Assembly (NCBI GenBank): GCA_001899635.1
Contig: MKVQ01000048.1
Span: 434,001-498,000, forward strand
DNA: 64,000 nt
Direction: 5' to 3'
Source: Myxococcales bacterium 68-20
GTDB taxonomy: Bacteria > Myxococcota_A > Polyangia > Polyangiales > Polyangiaceae
Below are positions 19,638 through 26,203 of the stretch, in pieces; the first letter of the stretch is position 1; the number at the start of each line of letters is the position of its first letter. The notes beneath the pieces are model-generated. The model was not told where the DNA came from. It saw nothing but the letters and a program-made list of their open reading frames with translations, and did not search any database. The translations under genes and the position numbers were made by a program.

Positions 19638-20306
19638 TCAATTGAGGACCGTGCCCTTCGTCTCGCCCAGCATCGCCCCGTGCTGCGCCGCGAGCTGAGC
19701 CATCACCATCCGCACGCGCGCTCGCGGATCGAGCTCCTCGAGGATGGCTTGCCTGACCTGGGCGTCGACCACCAGCTGGAACGCGCAGATGTCGGCGAGT
19801 GCGCCGGCCTTCGCGCCGCTCGTCTCGGTCCCGCGAAGCCCCTTCGGCATGCGGAGCTCGAACTTGGTGTCGTGCTTCTTCACCTCGGTGACGAACATCC
19901 TGGCGGCTGCGAGGAGCGCCGCATGGTCGGCGTCACTCACGGTGACGTCGACCTCGTGGAGTCGGCTCGCACGCGCACGCTTGTACGGGTAACGCGGCAG
20001 CTCCTCGACGACGAGCTCGTCCAGATGCACCCGTGCCGAGCCGGCAACGACGATGTTCGATCGCCCGTCGGGCAGCGGCTGGTGCTCGACGATGACACCC
20101 ACGGATGCGACCTCGGCGATGCGCGCGCCGCTACGGTCGACCTGCGCGATCACGATCGCGCCGTCGCGGTCGAGGCAGTCCGAGAGCATCGCCCGGTAGC
20201 GAGGCTCGAAGATGTGGAGCGGCAGGAGCGTCTCTGGAAACAGCACGACGTTCGGCAACGGAAAGACCGGAACGTCCGCGAGGGCATCTTCTTCGAGTCG
20301 AGTCAT
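19638..20306 (-). CDS. LON substrate-binding domain protein
   Basis: A protein of 222 residues consisting of the Lon N-terminal substrate-binding domain alone, without AAA or protease modules. Diagnostic stretches are VPVFPLPNVVLFPETLLPLHIFEPRYRAM at 12-40 (read here as FPLPNVVLFP followed by PLHIFEPRY) and the downstream SVGVIVEHQPLPDGR with IVVAGSARVHL. Stand-alone LON-domain proteins occur widely in bacteria with unclear roles; binding of misfolded proteins is the family expectation. It starts 12 bp after the SDR stop and abuts the Rieske gene, so it is within the folE operon. Confidence 0.9.
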   Translation of the reverse strand: MTRLEEDALADVPVFPLPNVVLFPETLLPLHIFEPRYRAMLSDCLDRDGAIVIAQVDRSGARIAEVASVGVIVEHQPLPDGRSNIVVAGSARVHLDELVVEELPRYPYKRARASRLHEVDVTVSDADHAALLAAARMFVTEVKKHDTKFELRMPKGLRGTETSGAKAGALADICAFQLVVDAQVRQAILEELDPRARVRMVMAQLAAQHGAMLGETKGTVLN

Positions 20307-20318
20307 GATCGGCGCAGG

Positions 20319-20999
20319 TCAGGGCCCGAAGGCATCCACACAGCTTCCGTTCATCGCAGCGGGCGCGTCGAGCGCGACCCAGGCGACGAGCCGCGCGATG
20401 TCCTCAGACGTCATCGCGGGGGAGAAGCCACTGCCCCGCAGCATATCCGTGTCGACGGACCCTGGCATCACGCACATCGACTGGAGCCCCGTACCGCGGA
20501 GCTCTTCGGCGAGGGACTTGACGAAGCCCACCGTGCCCCATTTCGACGCGCAGTACGCGCTCAGCCGCGGCGTGCCCATCGTCCCGGAGATGCTGCCGAT
20601 GGCGATGAATCGGCCGCTCCTCTCCGCGAGCATCGGCCGGAGGAAAGCCCTGGTGACGAGGTACGTGCCCTTGAGGTTCACGTCGAGCACCTCGTCCCAC
20701 TGCGCCTCGGTGGTGTCGAGCACGGACGTGCGATGGACGATGCCGGCGTTCGAGACGACCACACGCGGGACGCCGAATTCGACGAGCACGCGTGAGGTCG
20801 CGCTCTCGACCTCCGCCGAACGCGAGACGTCGCACGGGAGCGCGAGCGCCTTCCGGCCTCGGCGCACGATCTCTTCCGCTGCCGACGCGAGCGTCTCCTG
20901 TTTCCGCCCGAGCAGCGCGACGTCGCAGCCGCGATCGGCGAGCTCGAGGGCAATCGCACGTCCGATACCACGACCACCGCCGGTAACGACCGCGATCAC
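20319..20999 (-). CDS. Short-chain dehydrogenase/reductase (SDR)
   Basis: A classical SDR of 226 residues. The NAD(P) loop is TGGGRGIG at residues 6-13, the structural NAG motif is NAG in VVSNAGIVH, the catalytic Ser is in IGSISGTMG, and the active-site YxxxK is YCASK. Arg at the end of strand 2 (GRKQ) suggests NADPH preference. Its GTG start overlaps the folE stop as GTGA, so it is translationally coupled to GTP cyclohydrolase I. That invites the idea of a pterin reductase (sepiapterin- or FolM-like), but sequence alone also fits a FabG-like 3-ketoacyl reductase. Confidence 0.88.
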   Translation of the reverse strand: MIAVVTGGGRGIGRAIALELADRGCDVALLGRKQETLASAAEEIVRRGRKALALPCDVSRSAEVESATSRVLVEFGVPRVVVSNAGIVHRTSVLDTTEAQWDEVLDVNLKGTYLVTRAFLRPMLAERSGRFIAIGSISGTMGTPRLSAYCASKWGTVGFVKSLAEELRGTGLQSMCVMPGSVDTDMLRGSGFSPAMTSEDIARLVAWVALDAPAAMNGSCVDAFGP

Positions 21000-21598
21000 G
21001 GCGCCGCTCCTCGACCAACGCCGAGCGCAAGATGGGCCTCGGCAACGCGATCGGCCGGACCGCGAAGCGCGACGGTCTCCACCCGCGTGCCGACCGAGCG
21101 CTCGCCGCGAGCGATCATGCAGCCGTGCGCGAGGACGAGCCGGCAGCCCACCCATTCGGGCGTCAGGACGGCGTCGAGATCGTCGACGACGCTCTCGCCG
21201 ATCTTCTCCTGGAGCGCGAGCCGCCGCGCATGCGCGTCGACGAGCGCTGCGACGGTCCCGAGGCCGAGTAGGCGCACCGTTGCCTTGAACGCGACCGTGG
21301 CAGTCCCGAGCGACGGGAGGAGGTGATGCGGGCACGTCGTGACGACCGGAACGTCTCGGACGACCACGAGCGTCGGTGAGGTCGTGTCGATGGCGCTCGC
21401 CTCGACGAGCCGCCGCGTGTCGATCGCGTAGCCAGTGCAGAGCTCGTCGACGAACATGTCGGCGACGCGAGCGCCGGTGCCTCGAACCTCCGGCTCGTCG
21501 CGACCGAGCGCGCGGAGGAAGGCCTCGATGGCGGCCGCAGCCGCTTGACGATCGGCCGGCGGACGGGACGTGGAGGGAGCCTGGCTGCGCTGAGGCAT
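20996..21598 (-). CDS. folE: GTP cyclohydrolase I
   Basis: Converts GTP to 7,8-dihydroneopterin triphosphate, the first step to folates and other pterins. The protein is 200 residues from the ATG at 21598. Zinc ligands are recognisable: Cys and His in TTCPHHLLPS (normally CEHH, here CPHH) and the second Cys in LAHGCMIARGERS. The GTP-binding and catalytic region around VVDDLDAVL and CRLVLAHGC is intact. Its 5' end and upstream region are duplicated in decayed form at 23433-23620. It leads a unit folE, SDR, LON domain, Rieske and spermidine-synthase-like. The replacement of Glu by Pro in the first zinc motif is unusual. Confidence 0.92.
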   Translation of the reverse strand: MPQRSQAPSTSRPPADRQAAAAAIEAFLRALGRDEPEVRGTGARVADMFVDELCTGYAIDTRRLVEASAIDTTSPTLVVVRDVPVVTTCPHHLLPSLGTATVAFKATVRLLGLGTVAALVDAHARRLALQEKIGESVVDDLDAVLTPEWVGCRLVLAHGCMIARGERSVGTRVETVALRGPADRVAEAHLALGVGRGAAP

Positions 21599-21661
21599 GA
21601 CCCGCGAGCGTACCAAAGCCGCGCGCCTTTCGCTCGGCGCGCCGACCTCGGGCATGGCCGA

Positions 21662-22468
21662 TCAGCCCGCGTCGCTTGCTCCACCACCGGGGACGGGGAT
21701 GTCGATCCAGAGCGCCGAGGCCGTCGCCTCGGTCTCGAGCACGACGTCGCCCTCGAGGAGCTCCGCCCCGTCGCCCGTTTCGAGCGAAGCGCCGCTTGCC
21801 CGGAGCGAACCGGAGAGCGCGAGCAGATAGCCCGCCCGCCCTGGACGCACCTCGAGCCTGGTCTCGCTGCGAGAGCTCAGGTCCAGCCACCACACGCGCG
21901 CGTCGCAGCGCAGCGGCATCCCGTCGTCACCCGCCACGAGATGGCGGCCCGCGCTCACGGACGGCAGCTGCCGCTGGTAGTAGGCCGCCTCGCCCCCGTG
22001 GACGTTCGGCGAGAACCAGAGCTGCAGCATGCGCGTCGCCCGCTCCGTGTCGTTGCCCTCGGCGTGGACCATGCCGTCGCGCGCCGAGATGAGCTGCGCG
22101 CCGCGCGGGCGGACGACGGCGTCGTGCGCCTGGTTGCCGTGATGGCTCAGGTCGCCGTCGAGCACGATGCTCAGGATCTCCATCTCGCGATGCGGGTGGA
22201 GCGGAAACCGGGAACGCGGCGCGAACGTCGCATCGGCGAGCACGACGAGAGGCCCCATCGGGCGCCCCGTACCGGCGTGCTCGCCGACGGTGGCGACGAA
22301 GTGGTCCTTCAACCTCAGCCACGAGAGCTCGGTCGAAGGCAGGGTGTGCGAGGGCCTCGGTCGTACGTTGCTCAAGCTGCCTCCGGGACGGGCGCGCGAC
22401 GGGTTGCAGCCGAGCGCCGTGGCCAGCCCCAGCTGGCCGGCACCGATGACGAAGTCACGTCGGCTCAT
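21662..22468 (-). CDS. Pirin-family protein with twin-arginine-like signal
   Basis: A 268-residue bicupin. The pirin metal motif is HPHREMEILSIVLDGDLSHH at 91-110, followed by VVRPRGAQLISARDGMVHAEGN with the other metal ligands. Unusually for a pirin, it begins with SRRDFVIGAGQLGLATALGC, a Tat-type signal that ends in a Cys and could even be a lipoprotein signal, so the product may be exported. Pirins are quercetinase-like or redox-sensing iron proteins. It is divergent from a LysR regulator, a common arrangement for regulated pirins. Start: ATG at 22468, immediately before the RR motif. Confidence 0.88.
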   Translation of the reverse strand: MSRRDFVIGAGQLGLATALGCNPSRARPGGSLSNVRPRPSHTLPSTELSWLRLKDHFVATVGEHAGTGRPMGPLVVLADATFAPRSRFPLHPHREMEILSIVLDGDLSHHGNQAHDAVVRPRGAQLISARDGMVHAEGNDTERATRMLQLWFSPNVHGGEAAYYQRQLPSVSAGRHLVAGDDGMPLRCDARVWWLDLSSRSETRLEVRPGRAGYLLALSGSLRASGASLETGDGAELLEGDVVLETEATASALWIDIPVPGGGASDAG

Positions 22469-23624: not shown

Positions 23625-25658
23625 GTGAATGGGGCACGACGATTGCCCCGAGAGATCGCGGTGCGCGCTCCACCTCTGCTTCTCTTGTTCGCCTCGGCCC
23701 TGGCGCCGCCGGCCGCGACGGCTGCCGAGCCGCCGTCGATCGCGGACGATCCGCTGTTGCAGAGCCATCTCCTGCATCGGCTCGTCGAGCGGGAGCGCTC
23801 GCCGCTCCTCGTGCCGCAGAGCATCCGCCACGCGCAGGTCCCGCTGCTGCGCCCTCCGTACGTGGCCCATGCCGTCTCGGCGCTGGACTGCGAACACGCG
23901 ACGCACGACATCACGCTCGACCCGGAGACCGGCGTCACGAAGGCAACCCTCCAGCTGCAGGTGAAGGCGACGCACTCGCCGCTCGCATCGGTCAGCTTCG
24001 CGTTCGATGCCGGCCTCGAGACGGAGGGCATCTGGGCAACGGACCGCAAGGTGATCGTCGGGCAGGCGATGCTCGCACCGATGCGGGTCGTCCGCGTCGA
24101 CCTCGACCCGCCGCTCGCGCCCGGCGCGTCGACGGTCATCACGATGCCCTACGCGGGGACGCTCTCGTGCGCGACGGCGGACGGCGGATCGATCACCTGC
24201 TCGAAAGGCGCCGAGTTCTCGTACTTCGCCCACCAGTCCATCTTCCCGTACGTCTTCGATCCCGAGGCTCCGGAGGACTTCGTCCTCGACGGGCTCACAC
24301 GCGACATCGTGCTTCGTGTCCCCGCTGTGCACGACGTGGTCGCCACCGGCCAGAAGATCTCCGAGACGCTCGATGGCTCGACGAAGATCTCGAGGTGGTC
24401 GATCGACAAGCCGCTCTCGCGCGTCGTTGGTCTCTACGCCTTCGCCGGGAAGCTCGGCCTCCTGCCTGTCGGGGGTCGGACGGCACCGACGACGTTCATC
24501 TTCCCCTCCCCCGAGAAGCCGATCGATCGCGACCTCGTCTCCTGGTCCACGCCGGCGCTCGAGTTCGTGGAGCGCACCAGCGGCTCGAGGCTCCCGTTCG
24601 ATCGCAGTCTCTCCCTCGTGCGTCTCCCTCAGACGTTCGGCGATCCCGGCACGGCCACCTTCGGGATGACCCTGCTCTCGGACTCGTACGCTCGCATGGG
24701 CAACATCCTCTACGAAGAGACGTGGGCGCACGAGAACGCGCATCTCTTCTGGGGCGTCGTCGTCCCGGAGACGAACTCGAACGAGAGCCGACTGATGAGC
24801 GAGGGCATGGCGACCCTCACCGAGATCGACTACACGTTCGCGCGTCACTTTCCCGCCGAGGATCGCGACCTCTATCTCGCCCGCCGGTTCCTCCCGATGG
24901 GGCTCGACCTCCGCGTCAGCGGAAAGGACCTCCCGCCGGCGCAGCTCACCGCGGGAATGGATCTCCCGCAGGACTTCCGGACGCGTCGCTACACGCTCTG
25001 GGCCTACTATCGGACGGCGATCACGCTCGACCACCTCCGCGTGACCCTCGGCGAGGACGTCTTCTCGAACGTGCTCACCGACTACGTTGCGCGCTGCCGT
25101 TTCGTCGGCTGCCGTCCCGACGTCCTCCGCGAGATCGCGAGCGAGAAGAGCGGTAAGGACATGCAGCCGTTCTTCGAGCGCTGGGTCACGGCCAACGAGC
25201 GCCCGCGTGTCCTCGTCGGCTTCATACCCGCGAACGGCGGCGCCGACGTCGAGCTCACGAAAGGCGACGACCGACCGATGACACTCGAGCTCTGGCTCGG
25301 GCTCGCGAATGGAGCCCGAGTGAAGCGCCGCGTCGACCTCGGGCCGCACACGACCCGCATCCGTCTCGACGCGCCCGCGCCCGTGCTCACCGTCGCGGCG
25401 AGCCCACGCCACGACGTGCTCGTCGACGTGCGCTCGCTCGTCGACGGAGACCTCGACTTCGACGGCGAGACCGACGGCTTCGACGTGCTGCGCTGCGCAC
25501 CCCTCGTCGGACGGAGATACGACTCGGTCGGCGCGACCGGGCTGTGGAACGTCGACGAGAGGTTCGACCCGCGCTGCGACGCGAACGGAGATCTCGCGAT
25601 CGACGATCAGGACCTCGCCGCGATGGCCGCGCAGTTCGGCAAGCTGAGGGCGCGATGA
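23625..25658 (+). CDS. Secreted M1-like metallopeptidase with C-terminal dockerin
   Basis: A 677-residue protein with an N-terminal signal peptide (PPLLLLFASALAPPAATA). Residues about 85-280 resemble the aminopeptidase N-terminal beta-domain. The catalytic region has WAHENAHLFWG with HENAH at 369-373 and a downstream MSEGMATL whose Glu393 would be the third zinc ligand, one residue further than in canonical M1 enzymes. Residues about 606-677 carry two Ca-binding dockerin-like repeats, VDGDLDFDGETDGFDV and CDANGDLAIDDQDL. The stop overlaps the start of the cohesin lipoprotein gene (ATGA). It is inferred that the peptidase docks on that lipoprotein at the cell surface. The GTG at 23625 has ggagag upstream. 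Confidence 0.88.
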   Translation: MNGARRLPREIAVRAPPLLLLFASALAPPAATAAEPPSIADDPLLQSHLLHRLVERERSPLLVPQSIRHAQVPLLRPPYVAHAVSALDCEHATHDITLDPETGVTKATLQLQVKATHSPLASVSFAFDAGLETEGIWATDRKVIVGQAMLAPMRVVRVDLDPPLAPGASTVITMPYAGTLSCATADGGSITCSKGAEFSYFAHQSIFPYVFDPEAPEDFVLDGLTRDIVLRVPAVHDVVATGQKISETLDGSTKISRWSIDKPLSRVVGLYAFAGKLGLLPVGGRTAPTTFIFPSPEKPIDRDLVSWSTPALEFVERTSGSRLPFDRSLSLVRLPQTFGDPGTATFGMTLLSDSYARMGNILYEETWAHENAHLFWGVVVPETNSNESRLMSEGMATLTEIDYTFARHFPAEDRDLYLARRFLPMGLDLRVSGKDLPPAQLTAGMDLPQDFRTRRYTLWAYYRTAITLDHLRVTLGEDVFSNVLTDYVARCRFVGCRPDVLREIASEKSGKDMQPFFERWVTANERPRVLVGFIPANGGADVELTKGDDRPMTLELWLGLANGARVKRRVDLGPHTTRIRLDAPAPVLTVAASPRHDVLVDVRSLVDGDLDFDGETDGFDVLRCAPLVGRRYDSVGATGLWNVDERFDPRCDANGDLAIDDQDLAAMAAQFGKLRAR

Positions 25659-26203
25659 TGAAGGCGCTCGCTGTCCTCGCGACCCACGCGGCCCTTCTCG
25701 TCGCCGGCTGCAGCAGCAGCTCGGATCAACCGAAGAAGGCGCCGTTTCCGGCACCGGCGAGCTTCGCGACGGACGAGCCGGCGATCGGCAACCATATCGT
25801 GTACCTCCGCGGCAGGTCCGAGAGCCCGGGAGCCGAGCGCGTCGTGCTCGACGTGGTCGCACAGGGAGCGGGGCCGAGCGTGCACGGCGCGGCGTTCCGG
25901 CTCAGCTGGGATACCGCCAAGCTCGCGTTCGTGGAGGCGCACGTCGGCGCGGTGTGGTCGAAACAGGCCGTGGCTCTCGCGAAGGAAGGGCTCCCCGGCG
26001 AGCTCGTCGTCGTGTGGAGCGAGAAAGGGAACAGCCCCGGTGTGGACGCAAGTGGCGAGACGGTCCTCGGCTCGATCGACTTCCGGCTGAAGACGGGAGA
26101 GGCATCGACGCTCGCGTTCCGGCCCGATCGTTCCACGCTGCGCGACCGGGACGGCGCGCCCGTGACGGTCGAGTGGCGCGGTGGTCGGATCGCTCCGCGC
26201 TGA
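25655..26203 (+). CDS. Cohesin-domain lipoprotein
   Basis: A 182-residue lipoprotein (lipobox LVAGC, Cys19). Residues about 45-180 fit the cohesin fold: a VVLDVVAQGAG strand, then VHGAAFRLSWDTAKLAFVEA (the characteristic strand-turn after which the domain continues with a Val/Gly turn), GELVVVWSEKGNSPG, TVLGSIDFRLKTGEAS, and a final beta strand TVEWRGGRI. The ATG at 25655 overlaps the peptidase stop by four bases; a second ATG at 25658 is possible. As a lipidated cohesin next to a dockerin-bearing peptidase, its likely role is to tether that enzyme to the outer membrane. Cohesin assignment is by sequence pattern only. Confidence 0.82.
   Translation: MMKALAVLATHAALLVAGCSSSSDQPKKAPFPAPASFATDEPAIGNHIVYLRGRSESPGAERVVLDVVAQGAGPSVHGAAFRLSWDTAKLAFVEAHVGAVWSKQAVALAKEGLPGELVVVWSEKGNSPGVDASGETVLGSIDFRLKTGEASTLAFRPDRSTLRDRDGAPVTVEWRGGRIAPR

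Follow-up and report, generated by a model that had tools for sequence, protein, structure and literature searches.

Two overlapping genes of Myxococcales bacterium 68-20 lie within the window, which is the whole 64,000-nucleotide stretch of DNA analysed here (contig MKVQ01000048.1, positions 434,001 to 498,000 of the forward strand). The genome measures 11.9 Mb in 52 contigs, and its nearest named records are Labilithrix MAGs. The first gene encodes a metallopeptidase that ends in a dockerin module, and the second encodes a lipoprotein with a single cohesin domain. The features of the locus, in window coordinates, are as follows.

23625-25658, + strand: gene 1, CDS of a predicted secreted M1-fold (gluzincin) metallopeptidase with a C-terminal dockerin, 677 aa (Pfam, AF2 model, Foldseek)
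24729-24743, + strand: HENAH zinc motif (H369, E370, H373), all three residues invariant in a 10- and a 12-sequence alignment
24801-24803, + strand: third zinc ligand E393, 19 residues past HExxH, invariant in the 10- and 12-sequence alignments (spacing counted in 51)
25005-25007, + strand: Y461 within W-A-Y, W-A-Y invariant in the 10- and 12-sequence alignments
25446-25655, + strand: dockerin module, residues 608-677 (alignments, family profile, Pfam, model)
25449-25484, + strand: dockerin calcium loop 1, residues 609-620, DLDFDGETDGFD (sequence; conservation in 51)
25494-25496 and 25575-25577, + strand: C624 and C651, a possible disulfide, both Cys present in 13/13 of the window's clade
25578-25613, + strand: dockerin calcium loop 2, residues 652-663, DANGDLAIDDQD (sequence; conservation in 51)
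25655-25658, + strand: ATGA stop/start overlap of genes 1 and 2 (ORF coordinates)
25655-26203, + strand: gene 2, CDS of a 182-aa lipoprotein that carries a single cohesin domain (profiles, AF2 model, Foldseek)
25700-25711, + strand: lipobox VAGC, residues 16-19, with predicted lipidated Cys19 (sequence)
25763-26194, + strand: cohesin beta-sandwich, approximately residues 37-180 (AF2 model; Foldseek 6kgf_C, 4.7e-10)

The peptidase begins with a signal peptide, as judged by eye. Its true start may be GTG 23661 rather than 23625, which would shorten the protein by 12 residues; this possibility is raised because, in a 73%-identical relative (L045), 23661 is the equivalent of the sole start codon listed close to the N-terminus. 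The flanking genes are mostly unshared among the 13 loci compared at E 1e-8 (the wider loci were left out of this comparison), and a larger conserved operon was rejected on that basis. Matches to the upstream SDR, folE, and Lon-like genes (named by eye) occur only in L042, L043, L045, and L003, the last being the same record as L042, with one further upstream match, an SDR at 28% identity, in L051. The LysR, pirin-like, Kef, and 28226-30031 genes have no match in any of the 13 loci at this threshold. The upstream block itself, a Lon-like N-domain, SDR, and folE at 19638-21893, is conserved in the Labilithrix relatives L042, L043, and L045.

Taken as a single sequence, the window peptidase scores 24.7 bits against Pfam Peptidase_M1, under the cut-off of 27.7; the same Pfam family is matched by 10/10 clade members at E 1 or better, the best at 2e-14. 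An AF2 model of the protein (pLDDT 79.8, pTM 0.80, with residues 1-82 below 50) retrieved M1 enzymes in all 50 Foldseek rows shown, IRAP and ERAP being at the top and the best match reaching 8.7e-28. The M1 fold and the HExxH...E zinc ligands are thus present. M1 peptidases have 18 residues between HExxH and the distal glutamate, and this spacing is found in 36/38 peptidases from outside the window's clade, whereas 12/13 members of the clade (the window peptidase included) have 19; the extra residue is therefore a trait of the clade. Y461 occupies the position of the M1 catalytic tyrosine, and a permissive YxKG-like pattern occurs in 51/51 peptidases. GAMEN is the M1 exopeptidase motif, and a GAMEN-like pattern is absent from all 51 (the window peptidase and 50 relatives). 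Because the zinc ligands are invariant and the tyrosine pattern universal while the GAMEN-like pattern is missing, the peptidase is probably active and perhaps not a classical aminopeptidase, its activity being inferred from sequence without any assay. The window peptidase thus has its fold, HExxH...E, and Tyr motif in common with the M1 aminopeptidases (IRAP, ERAP1/2, and tricorn factor F3) and differs from them in the GAMEN-like pattern, the clade spacing, and the C-terminal dockerin. The absence of the GAMEN-like pattern where the zinc ligands and Tyr motif are kept is a hint of non-aminopeptidase specificity.

The dockerin module comprises two calcium loops of the DxNxDGxxDxxD type, with a helix after each (618-627 and 661-668 in the AF2 model). 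In 51/51 aligned dockerins, loop 1 has aspartate at positions 9 and 12, and loop 2 has it at position 1. The two loops differ in sequence and start 43 residues apart. The near-identical repeats of type I dockerins permit dual binding, and the window dockerin fails the criterion of near-identical repeats. A disulfide between C624 and C651, spanning the long linker between the loops, is possible and is inferred only. Against Pfam Dockerin_1 (PF00404), the window dockerin scores 14.1 bits (E 0.057), under the cut-off of 22.9, and 34/51 aligned dockerins are matched by Pfam at E 0.1 or better. When a 10-row family profile was searched against the PDB, the EF-hand protein secretagogin came first (8.9e-4) and a dockerin second (1.5e-3), both weakly; with a 51-row profile, dockerin-bearing chains took places 1-5, the best being 2y3n_B at 7.2e-9. 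The latter search returned 230 PDB sequences at E 1, EF-hand proteins among them. In the bacterium's own genome, the Pfam dockerin search missed the window peptidase and matched another gene, whereas the family profile found one matching dockerin, with that other gene next at only 0.012. The other gene (L160:4747-6594, - strand) encodes a protein that ends in dockerin-like calcium repeats (Dockerin_1, 29.1 bits) and lacks HExxH; no cohesin match was found in the 10-kb locus around it.

The lipidated cysteine of the partner lipoprotein is predicted from its lipobox, and the C19 column is kept in 9/10 aligned lipoproteins, the tenth being shifted by one; a rough lipobox pattern is present in 39/45 wider relatives, two of the six misses being cut by contig ends. 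Against Pfam Cohesin (PF00963), the window lipoprotein scores 13 bits (E 0.12), under the cut-off of 24.1, and a Pfam cohesin search of the whole genome gave no match at E 1. Among aligned relatives, 26/52 are matched by Pfam Cohesin at E 0.1 or better, the best at 1.8e-10. At E 10 or better, a profile of 10 lipoproteins found 16 sequences in the PDB, every one from a cohesin entry (best 8e-5), and one of 52 lipoproteins gave 24 matches at E 1, all cohesins (best 3.5e-10). The AF2 model, built from a 12-row alignment, has a pLDDT of 86.7 and a pTM of 0.78, and its best 50 Foldseek matches in the PDB are all cohesin-bearing chains; TM scores by target range from 0.32 to 0.76, the low values reflecting multi-domain chains. 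Since single-sequence Pfam scores fall short of their cut-offs, confirmation of the domains rests on family profiles and fold. Chance resemblance, a possibility prompted by those weak scores, is rejected for both cohesin and dockerin on the same grounds. The genome contains one cohesin match below E 0.01, the next lying at E 0.044, and thus no scaffoldin with several cohesins was found in it at that threshold.

The original prediction had described a cohesin lipoprotein beside an M1-like peptidase bearing a dockerin, two dockerin-type calcium-loop repeats at about residues 606-677, an ATGA overlap of the genes, and one extra residue in the zinc spacing, and each of these claims held. The structure-prediction check proposed with it also came out in its favour, the cohesin fold being both predicted and matched and the dockerin being recognised by profile.

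The distribution of the pair was surveyed only within the Myxococcota, in an order sample of 144 genomes and a phylum sample of 377. At order level, the 10 genomes with a peptidase match below E 1e-60 are also the 10 with a lipoprotein match (E 0.001), and in every one of them the genes sit side by side and overlap by 4 bases. Another 56 genomes of the order have weaker peptidase matches, which look like general M1 enzymes. In the window's genus, the pair is present in only 3/7 genomes searched. A contig search with the peptidase alignment returned 12 loci, 11 of them of the peptidase family; the new ones (L043, L045, and L052) all carry the pair.

Across the phylum, the clade cohesin profile matched 33 genomes and the clade dockerin profile 39, with 26 in common, each time on one contig. 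Among the 29 non-seed matches to the clade-only cohesin profile, 28 adjoin a same-strand gene of the M1-dockerin type, and the 29th lies at a contig end. When the 47 loci around non-seed matches were classified, with the peptidase called by the dockerin profile (<0.5) or the catalytic profile (<1e-6), there were 39 same-strand neighbour pairs, five M1-dockerin genes without a detected cohesin, two dockerin-like non-M1 genes, and one cohesin at a contig end; the peptidase of L121 was recognised only by the dockerin profile and the HExxH motif. Because the five M1-dockerin genes (L116, L132, and L134, plus L127 and L147, which contig ends truncate) have no detected cohesin neighbour, a strict 1:1 relationship fails in some genomes. 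The paralogues L116, L132, and L134, with L127 and L147 at contig ends, come from genomes in which a complete pair is present as well, and they may share its cohesin. In one genome that is 67% complete (G349), the dockerin is matched strongly and the cohesin not at all.

A wider cohesin profile matched 60/377 genomes of the phylum, and six of 18 further loci hold the pair. The other 12 (L169, L170, L172, L173, L174, and L176-L182) were not counted as pairs: L170, L172, L173, L174, L178, L179, and L180 have weak cohesin-like matches without an M1-dockerin neighbour, L176 and L177 appear to be spurious, no ORF was matched at 0.01 in L181 and L182, and at L169 a cohesin-like lipoprotein lies at a contig end. 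The weakly cohesin-like proteins of L172, L173, L174, L179, and L180 come from other Myxococcota families, do not adjoin M1 genes, and have PEP-CTERM-like tails. The dockerin profile likewise matches weakly in other families (such as G284, G342, G382, and G401). In total, the pair is found in 49/377 sampled genomes belonging to 12 families of the phylum, two of them (G198 and G220) with a peptidase cut by a contig end before the dockerin, and there are 58 distinct pairs when records outside the sample are counted. A pair local to the bacterium's own genome is thereby rejected.

A start codon that gives an overlap of exactly four bases is available in 52 of the 58 pairs (13/13 in the window's clade, and 34/39 and 5/6 in the other sets), and the six exceptions span from an 11-base overlap to a 12-base gap. 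These counts refer to possible start codons, real start sites not being established, and there is no background rate of overlap for comparison. The order of the genes is not fixed, with the peptidase first in 26/51 rows and the cohesin first in 25/51. The catalytic-domain tree and the cohesin tree can each be explained by a single switch of order, the branch in question having modest support (74 and 83), and several independent switches were rejected for this reason. L154 is excluded from the sets used for the dockerin and the trees because its peptidase runs off its contig (its dockerin was matched on another contig of G220), and the 51-row analyses leave out six pairs that were found later.

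For 51 of the 58 pairs, co-variation between the partners was assessed. The rho between cohesin and dockerin distances is 0.61, and that between cohesin and catalytic-domain distances is 0.42; the partial correlation of cohesin with dockerin given the catalytic domain is 0.49, whereas that of cohesin with the catalytic domain given the dockerin is 0.05. None of 500 label shuffles reached the cohesin-dockerin values. When 27 segments of equal length were taken by sliding along the peptidase, the segment best correlated with cohesin distances was the dockerin segment (0.63); the two segments that contain nearly all of the dockerin gave 0.58 and 0.63, and one with approximately two thirds of it gave 0.49, not above the best dockerin-free segment (0.49). 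Between families, rho is 0.27 for the dockerin and -0.13 for the catalytic domain. With permutation restricted to within families, the overall correlation was reached by 18/500 shuffles and the partial by 64/500, so that part of the signal is deep ancestry; the within-family measures of 0.74 and 0.52 were reached by 0/500. The co-variation is compatible with contact at the dockerin, a possibility for which there are no binding data, and does not prove binding.

The likely reading of these results is that the two proteins form a self-contained docking pair of one cohesin and one enzyme that tethers a protease to the cell envelope, with binding, calcium dependence, and location all being inferred. 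In this view, both genes would be translated together, both proteins would be exported across the inner membrane, the peptidase by means of a cleavable signal peptide, and the cohesin protein would receive its lipid at Cys19. The dockerin would fold around two calcium ions in the envelope and, so loaded, bind the single cohesin of its operon partner, so that one protease is held at one lipid anchor without a scaffoldin and is not lost by diffusion. The identities of the domains, the M1 fold and zinc ligands, the lipobox, the coupling over 12 families, and the co-variation at domain level are shown by computation, while export, 1:1 stoichiometry, catalytic activity, and an outer-membrane location, like binding and its calcium dependence, remain inferences. 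The reading is supported by fold, profiles, the 12-family neighbourhood, dockerin-centred co-variation, and the single cohesin and dockerin of the genome. It is weakened by Pfam scores below cut-off, the EF-hand protein that came first with the small profile, M1-dockerin genes without a cohesin, co-variation that is partly ancestral, the presence of the pair in only some genomes of the genus, and the lack of data on a complex.

The proposal of a non-cellulosomal docking system that tethers a protease, made in the original prediction, is accordingly supported by computation, co-variation being the nearest substitute for interaction data, and the description "minimal" fits the bacterium's own genome. 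Adjacency of the genes in relatives, the other check proposed, favours it across the 12 families. The use of the overlap as support for a stoichiometric partnership held as far as coupling is concerned, the 1:1 ratio being only inferred and not strict everywhere. Placement on the cell surface has no support beyond the envelope, a periplasmic face being also possible, and there is no evidence in this analysis either for or against a role in predation.

Other explanations can account for parts of the data. The cohesin lipoprotein could be a regulator that inhibits, folds, or protects the peptidase until it is released by calcium loss or by a partner, and tight operon coupling in both orders would equally suit an enzyme-inhibitor or enzyme-chaperone pair; this is unlikely, given that co-variation peaks at the dockerin and that almost none remains between cohesin and catalytic domain once the dockerin is accounted for. 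In solved complexes, cohesin-dockerin contacts are structural rather than inhibitory, which also counts against it. It is similarly improbable that the cohesin serves as a hub for several dockerin clients, as a small protease-based analogue of the cellulosome comparable to the hypothetical planctosome. This would explain why G196, G306, G320, G427, and G251 carry additional M1-dockerin paralogues for which no separate cohesin was detected, but the bacterium's own genome has just one matching dockerin and one cohesin match below E 0.01, its other dockerin-like protein being only a marginal match, and the phylum table shows one cohesin match per protein. Least credible is that the genes are co-inherited neighbours that do not dock, the calcium module stabilising the peptidase and the cohesin-like lipoprotein binding something else. 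The lack of interaction data, the wide separation of the calcium loops, and the two extra cysteines of the clade dockerins leave room for this, but it is countered by coupling that has been kept over 12 families and through a switch of gene order, and by co-variation specific to the dockerin.

The kind of system proposed in the docking reading is already known, since cohesin-dockerin pairs outside cellulosomes are established (PMC9012536; PMC9705933; see also a review by Peer and others, to which PMC9012536 and PMC6461901 refer). A search of titles and abstract openings in the open-access literature, subscription papers being outside its scope, found no description of a pair of M1-dockerin peptidase and cohesin lipoprotein. 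The type I and II cellulosome modules of Clostridium and Acetivibrio have the same two folds and are the modules matched by Foldseek and the profiles; in contrast to cellulosomes, no scaffoldin was found in the bacterium's own genome, the pair has only one cohesin, its anchor is a lipid in a Gram-negative envelope, its client is a peptidase, and its calcium loops are separated by 43 residues. Closest in concept is the hypothetical planctosome of freshwater Planctomycetes (PMC6461901), which was inferred from comparison of sequences, motifs, and structures and from domain co-occurrence, and in which cohesin and dockerin are likewise suggested to keep zinc peptidases at the outer membrane. That system is multi-part, with an adaptor that carries both modules, an anchor of 2,210 aa, and M12B and M14 peptidases, whereas the window pair consists of two genes that overlap, one for an M1-fold peptidase and the other for a small lipoprotein. 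In Clostridium perfringens, the cohesin-dockerin complexes of toxins and hydrolases (PMC12997984) dock outside cellulosomes and pairwise, as is proposed here, and cohesins of that species (2jh2 and 2vo8) are among the Foldseek matches of the lipoprotein model; their modules are on glycoside hydrolases, and no small lipoprotein partner is mentioned in the relevant passages. The Archaeoglobus fulgidus pair, which binds (PMC9705933), and the modules of ANME archaea (PMC9012536) have no link to cellulose and have partners that differ from those of the window pair, and no protease-lipoprotein operon is described in the relevant passages of either paper.

Cohesin-dockerin modules are best known from large sugar-degrading scaffolds, and their role in bacteria without scaffolds is an open question. 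In the Myxococcota, the system comprises two genes in 12 families of a single phylum, and partner, client, and anchor are all readable from sequence; the scaffold-free role is therefore directly testable with two proteins and calcium. The 58 matched module pairs also provide a natural set for studies of specificity and for orthogonal protein tethers. A bolder reading, as likely to fail as to stand, is that this is the smallest natural cohesin-dockerin machine known, with one lipid-anchored cohesin, one enzyme, and no scaffold, that it has been inherited as an overlapping pair since early in the Myxococcota and kept through a reversal of gene order, and that its main client is a diverged M1-fold protease of non-aminopeptidase specificity. 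If that is true, it would suggest that pairwise docking at the envelope, rather than scaffolding, is a basic use of cohesin-dockerin modules.
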